NCBI GenBank assembly: GCA_900317375.1
Contig: ONGJ01000028.1
Span: 1-41,123, forward strand
Direction: 5' to 3'
From: an uncultured Eubacteriales bacterium
GTDB taxonomy: Bacteria; Bacillota; Clostridia; Oscillospirales; Oscillospiraceae
DNA: 41,123 bases
A program made the position numbers and the translations under genes. Below are positions 36,342-41,123 of this stretch, in pieces (the first letter of the stretch is position 1; the number at the start of each line of letters is the position of its first letter). Below the pieces are notes generated by a model. It saw only the letters and a program-made list of their open reading frames with translations. It was not told the origin of the DNA and did no database searches.

Positions 36342-37081
36342 ATGCTGGAAATCAGAAACCTCAGCTTTTCCGTCGAAGAGGACGGGAATCGGAAAGAAAT
36401 CCTCCGGAATCTGAATCTGCAGATTAAGGATGGCAAATTTGTCGTCATCACCGGGCCCAACGGCAGCGGCAAGTCCACCCTCGCCCGCCTGATCATGGGC
36501 ATCGAAAAGCCCAGCGCCGGGCAGATTCTGCTGGACGGGACCGACATCACCGGCCTCGACATCACCGGCCGCGCCAGAGCGGGCATCAGCTTTGCCTTTC
36601 AGCAGCCTGTGCGCTTCAAGGGCATCCGGGTACAGGACCTGCTGCGTTTGGCCTCCGGCAGAAACCTTTCGGTCTCCCAGGCCTGCGAATATCTGTCCGA
36701 GGTGGGGCTCTGCGCCCGGGATTATATCGACCGTGAGATCAATTCCTCCCTCTCCGGGGGCGAGCTGAAGCGGATCGAAATTGCCACCCTCATGGCGCGC
36801 CATACGCGCCTTTCGGTCTTTGACGAGCCGGAAGCCGGCATCGACCTCTGGAGCTTTCAGAACCTGATCCGCATTTTTGAGTGATCCGCATTTTTGAGAA
36901 AATGCGCAGCGAGATCAAGGACAGCGCCATCGTCATCATCTCCCATCAGGAGCGCATCCTCCAGATCGCCGACGAGATCCTGCTTCTCTCCGGCGGCGAA
37001 ATCACCCGGCGCGGAAGCCCGGACGAGATTCTGCCCGGTCTGGTGACGGGCAGCGGCGTCTGCGTCCGGCTGCAGTCGTAA
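36342..37081 (+). pseudogene. sufC: SufC-like ABC ATPase, frame broken by 17-bp tandem duplication
   Basis: SufC is the cytosolic ATPase that drives Fe-S cluster assembly on a SufB/SufD-type scaffold. The first frame (36342-36884, 180 residues) holds Walker A GPNGSGKST, FAFQQPVRFKG, signature SLSGGELKRIE and Walker B LSVFDEPEAGID. It stops at TGA 36882. The rest (EKMRSEIKDSAIVIISHQERI, with the H-loop His) continues in another frame to 37081. Removing one copy of the 17-bp repeat at 36865-36898 restores a 240-residue SufC of normal length. As written, the truncated protein lacks the H-loop and should be inactive. Because the flanking genes are intact and the function essential, an assembly or sequencing error is plausible. 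Confidence 0.88.
36865..36898 (+). repeat. Exact 17-bp tandem duplication inside sufC
   Basis: TGATCCGCATTTTTGAG occurs at 36865-36881 and again immediately at 36882-36898. The second copy starts with the TGA that ends the first reading frame; 17 is not a multiple of three, so it shifts the frame. Confidence 0.97.
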
Positions 37082-37094
37082 GGAGGGCAGAACA

Positions 37095-38021
37095 ATGGTC
37101 AAACTGGATTCCATTCAAAAACGCCTGATCGAGGAAATTGCCGACCTGCACAGCGTGCCGACCGGCGCCTACAATTTCCGTGCCAACAGCCAGCTTGCCG
37201 GCCGGAACACCACCGCCAACATCGACATCGTCTCCAAGCCGGACGGCAGCGGCATTGATATTCATATCAAACCCGGCACCCGGAACGAGAGCGTGCACAT
37301 CCCCGTGGTCCTGTCCGAGAGCGGCATCAAAGAAACGGTCTATAACGACTTCTATGTCGGCGCCGACAGCGACGTCGTCATCGTCGCCGGCTGCGGCATC
37401 GACAACTGCGGCAGCCAGGATTCCGAGCACGACGGCATTCACCGCTTCTTTCTCGAAAAGGGCGCCAAAGTCCGCTATGTGGAAAAGCATTACGGCTCCG
37501 GTGACGGCCGCGGCAGACGCATCCTGAACCCGGTTACCGAGGTGTATATGGAGGAAGGCAGCTCCATGGAGATGGAGATGGAGCAGATCAAGGGCGTCGA
37601 CTCCACCGAGCGCGCCACCGTTGCCGAGCTGAAGGGCGATGCCCGCCTTGTGGTGAAGGAGCGCCTGATGACCCACGGCAGCCAGCATGCCGTCAGCGAT
37701 TACCGGGTCAGCCTGAACGGCGCCGGTGCGACGGCGGATGTGGTCTCACGCTCCGTGGCGCGTGACGATTCGTCCCAGACCTTCAACGCCCGCATCACCG
37801 GCAACGCGCCCTGCAGCGGGCATACCGAGTGCGATTCCATCATCATGGACAACGGCCGTATTCTTGCCATTCCCTCCCTCGAGGCCAACAACATTGACGC
37901 CATGCTGGTGCACGAGGCGGCCATCGGCAAAATTGCCGGGGACCAGCTAATCAAGCTCATGACCCTCGGCCTGACCCCGCAGGAAGCGGAAGAACAGATC
38001 ATCAGCGGCTTCCTCCGCTGA
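37095..38021 (+). CDS. SufB/SufD-like Fe-S scaffold (minimal SMS-type SufBD)
   Basis: A 308-residue protein with the SufB/SufD beta-helix core, much shorter than classical SufB (about 480). Key residues line up with SufB: Cys246 in TECDSIIM matches the cluster-assembly Cys of E. coli SufB (TQCDS context) and Glu274 in VHEAAIGKI matches the HEA motif; the C-terminus QLIKLMTLGLTPQEAEEQII is typical. No separate SufB, SufD, SufS or SufU is nearby. With sufC 13 nt upstream, this looks like a two-component SUF-like minimal system (SmsC-SmsB) in which one scaffold replaces SufB plus SufD. Confidence 0.88.
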   Translation: MVKLDSIQKRLIEEIADLHSVPTGAYNFRANSQLAGRNTTANIDIVSKPDGSGIDIHIKPGTRNESVHIPVVLSESGIKETVYNDFYVGADSDVVIVAGCGIDNCGSQDSEHDGIHRFFLEKGAKVRYVEKHYGSGDGRGRRILNPVTEVYMEEGSSMEMEMEQIKGVDSTERATVAELKGDARLVVKERLMTHGSQHAVSDYRVSLNGAGATADVVSRSVARDDSSQTFNARITGNAPCSGHTECDSIIMDNGRILAIPSLEANNIDAMLVHEAAIGKIAGDQLIKLMTLGLTPQEAEEQIISGFLR

Positions 38022-38052: not shown

Positions 38053-38120
38053 CACAGCAGGCTGCAGTTGACAACTGTAGCCTGCTGTGTTATGATAAGC
38101 CTGCTCGAGCTACAACTGTA
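38053..38120 (+). promoter_or_regulatory. BlaI-type autoregulated promoter with two operators and a large dyad
   Basis: TTGACA (38068-38073) and TATGAT (38091-38096) are 17 bp apart with an extended -10 TG at 38088-38089. TACAACTGTA at 38111-38120 is a perfect TACA-NN-TGTA BlaI/MecI half-dyad core just after the predicted start, and GACAACTGTA at 38070-38079 is a one-mismatch copy overlapping the -35. A 17-bp inverted repeat (38053-38069 with 38073-38089) encloses the -35 and spacer. Its lack of a T-tract argues against a terminator. Confidence 0.82.
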
Positions 38121-38143
38121 AACTCTTGGAGGAGGTCAGTATC

Positions 38144-38545
38144 ATGTCAGAACCCGTCAAAGACAGTATCGCCGGTCAGATTGCCGGTCGGATCACCGGT
38201 TCCGAGCTGGAGGTCATGAAACTTCTGTGGCGCGCGGAGGACGCTCTGCCCATCACGGAAATCCGGGAAACTCTGCAGCGCCAAAAGGGCTGGGAACCGG
38301 CGACCATCAAGACCCTGGTTTCCCGCCTGGTCGGCAAGGGTGCCCTGCGCCAGGAAAAGCGAAACGTCTATTATTACTCGCCCCTGATCGAGGAGCAGGC
38401 GTATAACGCCTGGGCGACGGACGATCTGATCCACCGCCTGTATAACGGCAGCGCGCGGAATCTGGTCGCGGCCCTGGTGCATTCCGACGGCCTGACGAAA
38501 CAGGACCTCGAAGAACTGCAGAATATGTTTATCGTGGAGGATTAG
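38144..38545 (+). CDS. BlaI/MecI-family transcriptional repressor
   Basis: This 133-residue winged-helix repressor is of the penicillinase-repressor family. The N-terminal winged helix contains LTGSE-like ITGSELEVMKLLW, ITEIRETL, the recognition region WEPATIKTLVSRLVGKGAL and the wing QEKRNVYYYSPLI. The C-terminal half (about residues 85-130) is the helical dimerisation part that is normally cleaved when the sensor is triggered. ATG 38144 lies 8 nt after GGAGGAGG. The M56 protease gene starts 3 nt after its stop. It likely represses its own promoter through the TACA-NN-TGTA sites. Confidence 0.93.
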   Translation: MSEPVKDSIAGQIAGRITGSELEVMKLLWRAEDALPITEIRETLQRQKGWEPATIKTLVSRLVGKGALRQEKRNVYYYSPLIEEQAYNAWATDDLIHRLYNGSARNLVAALVHSDGLTKQDLEELQNMFIVED

Positions 38546-38548
38546 CAT

Positions 38549-41123
38549 ATGAAAACACTTCTTGCTCTTACCGTAAGCGGAAGTGCCCTGACAATCCTGC
38601 TTTTGGTGCTCCGGTATATCCTTCTGAAAAAGATGCCGAGCACCGTCTATTACTATGCCTGGCTGCTGGTGCTGCTGCGTTTTCTGCTGCCGCTGCCCGG
38701 CCTTGTTCCGCCTTTCCCCGCGTCGGCCGATTCCGCCCCGGAGGCGGCCGCCTATACCGTACAGGCCGAAAACAGGCCTGAGACCCCGCAGCCGGCAGAA
38801 TACCCGGCTGCTCCGGAAGCGCTGCTGCAGGGCAGCGCTGGAAACCGGGCTCCGGAACCCGCCCCGGCACTGAACACAGCAGCTCCCGCTGCCGCGGAAA
38901 AGGGCACCTTTGACTGGCGCTCACCCGCCCTCTGGCTCAGCCTTTGGGCGGCAGGGGCAGCCCTCTGTTTCGGAACGACGGTGTTCTCGTATGCCCGCTT
39001 CATGCATGCCCTGCGGCGAAGCCTCCGGAAACCGGATGCGGAGCTTTCCGAGCTTTACGGCTCCCTGCCCGGCCAAAAGCCTGCCCTGTACACCAGTGAT
39101 GCGCTGAAGACGCCCCTGATGTGCGGCGTGCTCCATCCCCGCATCATCCTGCCGACCGGTCCGCTGGACGCAGAGCAGCTTTCCAACATTCTGCGCCACG
39201 AGCTCATGCACTTCCGGCGCCGTGACACCCTGTATAAATGGTTCGCCGCCGCGGTTCTCTCGCTGCAGTGGTTCAATCCCCTCGCCTGGCTCGCCCGGCG
39301 CGAGATCGGCCGCGCCTGTGAGCTCAGCTGCGACGAGATGCTGCTGCGTTCCATGAACCGGGAGGAAAAGCAGTCCTACGGCAACACCCTTCTGCACATG
39401 GCTGCCTCCTCGTCTCTTCCGGCCGGCGTGGTTGCGACATCCTTCTCTACGGAAAAGAGAAATCTGAAAGAGCGGCTCCGGCAGATCATGACCTACCGGA
39501 AAAGCGGGGCGCGGGTTCTGGCCGCCGTGCTGGCCCTCGTCCTCCTCACGGGCTGCGGATTGGCTGCCGGCCCGCAGACAGAGAAGCAGGGTACACCGGA
39601 AACGCCGGCTGAGACCTCCGGCAAGGTCGTCCGTGTCACAAGCGTGGACGAACTGCTGGCCGCCATCGCGCCGGACACCGTCATCGAGCTTGCTGCCGGC
39701 GAGTATGATCTCAGCACCGCCTCCGATTACGGCGCGGATACGCACAGCGCCTGTTACTCCTGGAACGGCGTCTGGGACGAAGAGGGCAGAAATTCTGCCG
39801 AGCTGGTGATTACCGCGGATAACCTTACCATTCGCGGCGAAGGCATGGACAGGACCGTGATTGCCGCCGTTCCGCGCTATGCCAACGTCATCCGCTTTGT
39901 CGGCTGCCAAAACCTCACGGTCTCAAATCTCACCGCGGGCCATACGCGGGAGCCCGGTTTCTGCTCCGGCGGTGTTCTGCGCCTGGAAAACGGCACGGAT
40001 GTCCGGGTGGAGGCCTGCGGTCTCTACGGCTGCGGTACCGTCGGCGTGGATGCCGACAAGGTCAGCGGACTCAGCGTTTCCGGCTGCCGCATCTATGAGT
40101 GCAGCTATAACGCCGTCTCCCTCCGGCAATGCCGCAATGTGGATATAGAGAACTGTGAAATTGACCGGCACGGGATTCGCGAGGGGCAGGGCTCCTGCAC
40201 GGCCCTCTTCACCGCGTCGTATTCCGACCGCGTCAGGATGCTTCATAACCGCATCCACGACAATGCCCCCCAGTTTCTCCTGCAGCTTGACTATACGGAG
40301 AACGCCCTGTTTCTCTCCAACGAGGTGTATGACAACCGTTTCGATGCCGCAGTGTTCCAGTTTGAACAGTACGGGGCTACGGTGGACGGCTGCGCCTTCA
40401 AAAACAACGGGACAATACGGCGCTGGGTCTACAGCAGCGGCGTCTATGCCAATGATGTTACAGGAAAGCTTCTGGACGCGGAGGACTTTGAAGCCATGAC
40501 GCTCCGTGACATTGACCCGAATGTGGACGTCACTCCCGCACCCGTAATGGTGGGGACGGAGGTTTCTCCGGGCGCGTCCGTCTTGGTGAAGACGGTGGAC
40601 GAGTTCCTTGCCGCCATCGGTCCGAACCGGACGATCGTCCTGGACGGGGAGCTCTTCGATCTCTCCACAGCCTCCAGCTACGGCTCCGTCGGCGGTGAGT
40701 ATTACTACTGGAATCAGAGCTATGACGGCCCGGAGCTGGTGATCCGAAATCTCGCTAACCTGACGATCCTGGGCAAACCGGAGGATCCCGCCTCCGTTAC
40801 ACTCGCTGCGATTCCCCGCTATGCCAATGTGCTGAATTTCGATAGCTGCGAGAATATTACGGTGGCGGGCTTCACGGCAGGCCACACCAAAGAGCCCGGT
40901 TCCTGCTCGGGCGGCGTGCTCCATTTACAGAACTGCGGCACGGTCACGGTTGACCATATGCGCCTGTACGGCTGCGGCGTTCTGGGAATCCAGACGGCAA
41001 ACTGCGCCCGTCTGGCTGTTTTGAAAACCGAGATTTATGAATGCTCTCAGGGCGCCGGGCAGTTCTTCCAGACCGACGGCATCGCCTTCGACAGCTGCGA
41101 CATCCACGATGTGCCGAGCCCGG
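38549..41123 (+). CDS. BlaR1-like M56 metalloprotease fused to beta-helix sensor (3' end cut)
   Basis: This frame stays open to the window end (858 codons seen). Residues 1-335 follow BlaR1 topology: helices at about 5-25 and 36-53, a Pro/Ala-rich external loop (55-122), a third helix at about 126-147, and a cytoplasmic M56 zinc protease with HELMH at 217-221 and CELSCDE at 257-263. A fourth helix runs about 317-335 and ends in LTGC (Cys336), a perfect lipobox. In BlaR1 an external penicillin-binding domain would follow. Here there are two right-handed beta-helix units with a 317-residue period (VDELLAAIAPDTVIEL and VDEFLAAIGPNRTIVL; shared AGHT-EPG-CSGGVL). It should relieve the upstream BlaI-like repressor on ligand binding. 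The ligand is unknown; surface polysaccharide is a guess. Confidence 0.9.
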   Translation, partial: MKTLLALTVSGSALTILLLVLRYILLKKMPSTVYYYAWLLVLLRFLLPLPGLVPPFPASADSAPEAAAYTVQAENRPETPQPAEYPAAPEALLQGSAGNRAPEPAPALNTAAPAAAEKGTFDWRSPALWLSLWAAGAALCFGTTVFSYARFMHALRRSLRKPDAELSELYGSLPGQKPALYTSDALKTPLMCGVLHPRIILPTGPLDAEQLSNILRHELMHFRRRDTLYKWFAAAVLSLQWFNPLAWLARREIGRACELSCDEMLLRSMNREEKQSYGNTLLHMAASSSLPAGVVATSFSTEKRNLKERLRQIMTYRKSGARVLAAVLALVLLTGCGLAAGPQTEKQGTPETPAETSGKVVRVTSVDELLAAIAPDTVIELAAGEYDLSTASDYGADTHSACYSWNGVWDEEGRNSAELVITADNLTIRGEGMDRTVIAAVPRYANVIRFVGCQNLTVSNLTAGHTREPGFCSGGVLRLENGTDVRVEACGLYGCGTVGVDADKVSGLSVSGCRIYECSYNAVSLRQCRNVDIENCEIDRHGIREGQGSCTALFTASYSDRVRMLHNRIHDNAPQFLLQLDYTENALFLSNEVYDNRFDAAVFQFEQYGATVDGCAFKNNGTIRRWVYSSGVYANDVTGKLLDAEDFEAMTLRDIDPNVDVTPAPVMVGTEVSPGASVLVKTVDEFLAAIGPNRTIVLDGELFDLSTASSYGSVGGEYYYWNQSYDGPELVIRNLANLTILGKPEDPASVTLAAIPRYANVLNFDSCENITVAGFTAGHTKEPGSCSGGVLHLQNCGTVTVDHMRLYGCGVLGIQTANCARLAVLKTEIYECSQGAGQFFQTDGIAFDSCDIHDVPSP
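39644..41123 (+). repeat. Tandem 951-nt beta-helix repeat units in the M56 fusion protein
   Basis: The segment coding VDELLAAIAPD at 39644 recurs as VDEFLAAIGPN at 40595, an in-frame 951-nt (317-codon) period. Within units, LSTAS.YG, RYANV, LT(I/V), AGHT-EPG-CSGGVL and LYGCG-VG recur in the same order. The second copy is incomplete at the window edge. Copies are diverged, so this is an old protein-level repeat. Confidence 0.85.

Follow-up and report, generated by a model that had tools for sequence, protein, structure and literature searches.

The contig ONGJ01000028.1 of an uncultured Eubacteriales bacterium of the Oscillospiraceae (assembly GCA_900317375.1), which we analysed as one entire stretch of 41,123 bases (G000:C62; hereafter the window), ends in a two-gene operon in which a BlaI-type repressor is followed by a protease of the peptidase M56 family whose outer half is a tandem beta-helix, and this fusion is conserved across most of the sampled genomes of one genus. 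On balance, the two genes probably form a proteolytic receptor circuit that follows the BlaR1/BlaI type, regulates itself and senses something other than beta-lactams. The genes and their parts are as follows, in the coordinates of the window:

38144..38545, + strand: gene for a BlaI/MecI-family repressor (Penicillinase_R, E 4.4e-28; MecI 1okr, E 5.2e-17)
38549..41123, + strand: gene for an M56 protease with a tandem beta-helix ectodomain (858 amino acids, cut by the contig end)
38555..39484, + strand: M56 protease domain (H217ELMH221, D226, E258xxxD262, Y277, self-cleavage motif Ser298-Phe299, R309)
39500..39556, + strand: fourth membrane helix, ending in the lipobox LTGC (Cys336)
39602..40500, + strand: beta-helix unit 1 (from profile, alignment, model and fold search)
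40577..41122, + strand: beta-helix unit 2, truncated by the contig end (from alignment and model)

Protease, repressor and operators

A sequence-only reading of this DNA had likened the protease half to BlaR1 and had placed a BlaI-like repressor and its operators beside it, and all three assignments hold. Pfam Peptidase_M56 (PF05569) covers residues 3-312 of the window protein (E 2.8e-47, 161.8 bits against a cut-off of 31) and is matched by all 27 fusions scanned at E 0.001, while the NCBIfam model blaR1_generic gives 103.3 bits, far under its 400-bit cut-off. BlaR1 cleaves itself between Ser283 and Phe284. The residues that PMC9834060 names for BlaR1 (His201, His205, Asp210, Glu242, Asp246, Tyr261, Phe284 and Arg294) correspond, by alignment and spacing, to H217, H221, D226, E258, D262, Y277, F299 and R309 here. 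These eight do not vary in any of the 27 aligned fusions, and neither does the zinc-site set HExxH, Glu+41 and Asp+45 (H217, E218, H221, E258, D262). At the self-cleavage position, the 32 fusions compared by eye have Thr-Phe (19), Ser-Phe (11, the window included), Gly-Phe (1) or Ala-Phe (1, locus L225). A regular expression for this site also fits 4 of 55 M56 controls, whose sequence differs around it, and no contrast is drawn from that; the controls come from 50 loci handpicked from the higher-scoring M56 matches of the order, taken by descending score with mostly a single locus per genome, and are not a random sample. The repressor, directly upstream, scores 98.4 bits against a cut-off of 22.6 with PF03965 (Penicillinase_R), and at E up to 0.001 these two genes are the sole Peptidase_M56 and Penicillinase_R matches of the 3.08 Mb genome.

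The promoter of the operon contains two sites of the BlaI type, in a layout that recurs in the relatives:

38067..38083, + strand: operator 1 (GTTGACAACTGTAGCCT), overlapping the -35 hexamer; its half-sites GACA-AC-TGTA, GACAACTGTA, lie at 38070-38079
38068-38073, + strand: -35 hexamer TTGACA, overlapped by operator 1
38091..38096, + strand: -10 hexamer TATGAT, at a 17-base spacer from TTGACA (read from the sequence; relatives similar by eye)
38111..38120, + strand: operator 2, TACA-AC-TGTA (TACAACTGTA), 41 bp downstream of operator 1
38128-38135, + strand: candidate ribosome-binding site of the repressor gene (GGAGGAGG), a likely one

TTGACA, the 17-base spacer and TATGAT read as a good promoter. 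BlaI/MecI operators are TACANNTGTA-like, as are those of the window. Across 24 blaI promoters, and allowing up to one mismatch to TACANNTGTA, operator 1 is kept in 22 (missed by L113 and L117) and operator 2 in 19; the five that miss the latter (L118, L120, L122, L123 and L124) have in its place another near-palindrome, ending CGTAGTCT, perhaps a sign of shifted BlaI specificity.

Outside the operon such sites are few. In the 3.08 Mb genome, exact TACANNTGTA is present at just 8 sites, whereas the reversed control pattern has 34; by stop-to-stop lists of open reading frames (ORFs), five of these 8 sites fall within long open frames and one at a frame end, and another is operator 2 of the window. 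The remaining site, G000:C50:142525 (L147:4026), stands outside long open frames, only within a frame of 95 codons, and precedes small genes that begin with a Gly-Gly leader-like sequence. The operator-1 pattern, at up to one mismatch, has a single site in the whole window genome, and in 41 genomes of the genus, taken from a larger set, it has 34 sites, spread over 31 genomes, where the reversed pattern has 7. Thirty of the 34 are at blaI promoters (28 at operator 1, 2 at operator 2), one precedes a stand-alone beta-helix gene (L156:2019-2035), and three one-mismatch sites (G008, G015 and G020) lie on stretches without a blaI, M56 or beta-helix match. Of 27 genomes with a beta-helix fusion, 26 have the pattern at that very operon; the exception is G020, whose blaI promoter has a clear operator 1, yet one outside the longer pattern. 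Carriers without a beta-helix fusion are G002 and G019, which have blaI-M56 operons, and G008 and G015, with the unrelated one-mismatch sites just mentioned. Because the signature is almost confined to the blaI-M56 operon, the circuit looks self-regulating: judged by its sites, the operon is the only regularly recurring operator-1 target in the genus genomes searched, and hardly any other gene seems to be under the control of the circuit.

We regard it as quite unlikely that BlaI runs a wider regulon through weaker sites, with the operon merely feeding back on itself. BlaI proteins elsewhere are reported to affect other traits (PMC4549145 and PMC12565901), the site at C50:142525 lies outside any long open frame, and the genome-wide search for TACANNTGTA covered exact sites only; against this, exact sites occur less often than the control pattern, and 6 of the 8 coincide with a long open frame or the end of one.

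The beta-helix ectodomain and the proposed circuit

The outer half of the window protein matches Pfam Beta_helix (PF13229; E 8.7e-18, 64.9 bits against a cut-off of 25.9) and, weakly, NosD (1.4e-5), and its predicted model shows beta-helix strands (predicted local distance difference test, pLDDT, 74.6); a model of the full-length relative L025 was too poor for use (pLDDT 39.0). The beta-helix assignment of the sequence-only reading thus stands, but its equal repeats of 317 residues do not: the units are unequal, and when aligned to unit 1 of the window the first unit of the fusions can be followed along some 240-340 residues, the second along some 170-190. In a Foldseek search with unit 1 only, the best structural matches were alginate epimerases and lyases. 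Going by the beta-helix fold, the extracellular ligand may be a glycan or a surface polymer.

The ATG at 38549 opens a frame that continues past the window end and, since the contig itself stops at 41123, the gene is cut rather than short. Together with the BlaR1-like protease half, this cut leaves room for an ordinary beta-lactam sensor whose penicillin-binding part has been lost from view, and the genome has seven Beta-lactamase2 matches in five open frames (best 1.9e-13), none of them on the window contig. We nevertheless hold this explanation to be very improbable: at E 0.001 the 27 fusions match M56 (27), Beta_helix (27), NosD (12) and Pect-lyase_RHGA_epim (2), and none matches a transpeptidase or beta-lactamase family in Pfam, although 26 of them have a complete 3' end (the window gene itself being the one cut there). 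The tails after unit 2, which vary in length, match no Pfam family at the same threshold. Since these 27 fusions lack a penicillin-binding domain, beta-lactam sensing was discarded, in line with the sequence-only reading. No resistance gene was recognised beside the operon.

Gene order, motifs, operators, predicted fold and recurrence are direct observations, and the circuit that we propose from them would work as follows. BlaI dimers would occupy the two operators observed and so keep the operon that encodes them from being transcribed. The M56 zinc protease, whose catalytic residues are in place, would sit in the membrane with its active site facing the cytoplasm, if the topology is that of BlaR1. 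Outside, the two beta-helix units would, from their fold, bind an extracellular polymer, most likely a glycan; binding would shift the fourth helix and the protease, which by homology would cut itself at Ser-Phe and cut BlaI. The two cleavages would derepress the operon, so that more sensor is made. The output would most simply be the operon itself, by positive feedback, and in genome G062 also a stand-alone beta-helix protein. Here the operator-1 signature found before a stand-alone beta-helix gene raises the possibility that the sensor has a related effector, as BlaR1 has BlaZ, and brings to mind that the BlaR1 sensor is itself akin to class-D beta-lactamases; stand-alone genes adjoining blaI in L106 and L113 have no operator of their own.

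Several points weigh against this model: (i) the ligand, the cleavages and the binding in this circuit are inferred from sequence and fold. (ii) Pfam finds no enzyme family in the outer half of the window protein, Beta_helix and NosD being the only matches, the Foldseek template-modelling scores are low (0.22 by query length for the top match), and the beta-helix fold occurs in many proteins of differing function. (iii) At what we take to be the cleavage site of the MecI/BlaI family, alignment to MecI gives LVLN-F in MecI and LVAA-L in the window repressor, which lacks the Phe at P1'. By eye, Leu occupies P1' in all 32 of the closest repressors listed, the window's included; according to PMC9834060, Phe is almost invariant at that position of the BlaI cleavage site. 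BlaI may be cleaved despite the Leu, yet this is a real difference from known BlaI. (iv) Only one of the 18 stand-alone beta-helix genes examined (L156) is preceded by the operator-1 signature. (v) It is hard to see what output a receptor would have if its own operon were all that it controls.

An alternative that we consider unlikely makes the beta-helix a product and not only a sensor. The fourth helix would double as a lipoprotein signal peptide, cut by LspA before Cys336, so that processing splits the receptor from its sensor and the beta-helix pair stays at the surface as a lipoprotein; the M56 part would monitor or control its supply, what the circuit registers would be how lipoproteins mature or how the surface is occupied, and genes for M56 and for beta-helix lipoproteins would have fused and split repeatedly. 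A strict lipobox at the end of the helix is present in 23 of 31 fusions and, by the same script, in 11 of 53 M56 controls with a clear fourth helix, the criterion having been tightened from a looser version that 14 of the 53 controls passed; the strict form also excludes L119, L132 and L138, which carry Ser/Ala-Cys there. A lipoprotein-type signal peptide is found in 15 of the 22 stand-alone beta-helix proteins counted, a count that leaves out 15 loci that are cut, broken or distant (L133, L142, L228-L237 and L240-L242), and some of these signal peptides are very like the fusion helix, as in both L113 proteins. In L238 (1360-3243), a sequence like the M56 C-terminus (a 19.8-bit match) directly precedes the signal peptide of a stand-alone beta-helix lipoprotein, which suggests that gene fission turned a fourth helix into a signal peptide. 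Moreover, the window contig encodes LspA, and operator 1 has no other regular target. On the other side, 5 of the 31 fusions have no usable lipobox (L107, L111, L115, L155 and L158), Cys336 falls outside the columns conserved at 90% whereas, further along, Gly341 never varies and Pro342 hardly does, the fourth helix of the separate fusion L225 is ordinary and has no lipobox, and the 11 controls pass the same test. Lipidation is thus a possibility, though one that not every fusion needs; given those without the cysteine, lipoprotein processing does not seem to be required.

Distribution, history and surroundings of the operon

Unit 1 is matched at E 1e-5 in 33 of 60 genomes, the window's own included, all of the same genus (33 of its 37), and these 33 include both fusions and stand-alone genes. 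Among the fetched loci, 26 full-length relatives carry blaI, M56 and two beta-helix units:

L025, L107-L120, L122-L126, L155, L158-L160, L223 and L224: full-length fusion loci

L025 belongs to a public metagenome-assembled genome (56-58% identity), and L223 (another genus of the same family) and L224 (another family of the same class) have the same promoter signature. That the fusion is an assembly chimera or a decaying gene can hardly be maintained: the window genome is fragmented (161 contigs), but the same in-frame fusion stands in these 26 relatives, including L025 and two genomes outside the genus, and the catalytic residues are invariant. Misassembly, which the sequence-only reading had named as a possible refutation, is rejected, the architecture recurring in independent genomes. 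More widely, searches of the family and of the class, each with the window's own genome included, returned beta-helix relatives in 20 of 150 and 30 of 391 genomes, respectively, and three of the 20 stretches fetched from these genomes have M56 fusions (L223, L224 and L225).

In a quick tree of 87 M56 domains, all fusions except L225 fall on one well-supported branch of 32 rows. This branch includes L154 (4314-6641, genome G019), where the genus-type blaI-M56 operon has RCC1 repeats in place of the beta-helix (RCC1_2, 4.4e-41), apparently an exchange of the sensor while the type of protease and promoter stayed the same. The M56-beta-helix fusion L225 (3308-5533) belongs to another genus and falls on a distant M56 branch, with a distant BlaI adjacent; it is a single case that is cut by a contig end. 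Constraining L225, the other fusions and L154 to one clade is rejected by the approximately unbiased test (p-AU 1.9e-5, log-likelihood difference 110); L154 was added to the constraint after the tree had been viewed, and we rely on this test rather than on the one without it (p 9.85e-80). Since L225 sits in a distant branch and the joint clade is rejected, M56 has captured a beta-helix at least twice. In the tree of unit 1 (67 rows), fusions and stand-alone proteins are intermixed, with 11 label changes, 3 of them forced by well-supported branches; this tree is quick and has several long branches, and we read from it only repeated exchange between fusions and stand-alone beta-helix genes. L224 (G411), although from another family, nests within the genus in both the M56 and the unit 1 trees, which may reflect transfer or assembly contamination.

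The repressor coding sequence is given from the preferred ATG at 38144 to the stop at 38545; the ORF listing begins at a TTG at 38126, and the searches used 38147-38542. Upstream of blaI, the window has genes for a SufC-like ATPase and an adjacent short SufBD-core protein (36342-38018), the SufC-like gene being seemingly split over two frames near 36881. We found no neighbour gene that stays constant: 20 adjacent ORFs were scanned, chosen greedily so that some may be shadows, and the 7 with a Pfam match at 1e-6 each differ in kind.

Comparison with known systems

BlaR1 is known chiefly as an antibiotic sensor, with BlaZ as its effector. Like BlaR1/MecR1 and BlaI/MecI of Staphylococcus and Bacillus licheniformis, the system described here combines an HExxH...ExxxD M56 protease, a Ser-Phe motif, a repressor of the BlaI family and an outer C-terminal domain, and it differs from them as follows: (i) the BlaR1/MecR1 sensor is a domain like class-D beta-lactamases (a kinship noted for BlaR1 in PMC7593790), whereas here it is two beta-helix units. 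(ii) The BlaI protein lacks the cleavage-site Phe. (iii) The fourth helix often bears a lipobox. The right-handed beta-helix, common among sugar-handling proteins, is also the fold of the PL6 alginate lyases, the AlgE C-5 epimerases and the alginate epimerase/lyase 8ja4 (14-19% identity in the top seven rows of a comparison by fold), but here the fold is fused to a receptor protease. The stand-alone beta-helix proteins of the genus have the same two-unit domain, often with a similar signal peptide, and no protease.

M56 proteins with other or unrecognised outer domains, the former mentioned in the sequence-only reading, are usual in the sampled order. A BlaI-family gene accompanies 49 of the 50 fetched M56 control loci (the exception being L181), and none of the 52 control proteins in the Pfam scan (53 less one of L194, cut by its stretch) matches a transpeptidase family; their outer domains are Big_14 (4), DUF4825 (3), Cu_amine_oxidN1 (2), Peptidase_M23, DUF4179 and FG-GAP_3 (1 each). 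The outer parts of the other M56/BlaI pairs are unrelated or unrecognised, in contrast to the beta-helix here. The M. tuberculosis homologue, according to PMC9834060, is without the sensor. A search for peptidase M56 with a beta-helix, among open-licence papers only, found none, which does not imply absence from print.

The beta-helix, gained at least twice, and the RCC1 swap, seen once, suggest that M56/BlaI is a general chassis for signalling from outside to inside the cell, with exchangeable sensors. Being a small two-gene system, it also allows the nature of its signal, its self-cleavage and the part played by the fourth helix to be approached without a resistance gene. In the sampled order, an M56 protein often has no recognised penicillin-binding domain, and the general idea is not new; what is novel in comparison with BlaR1 and its relatives is a beta-helix variant of the sensor within a well-defined, conserved circuit, rather than a new kind of system.
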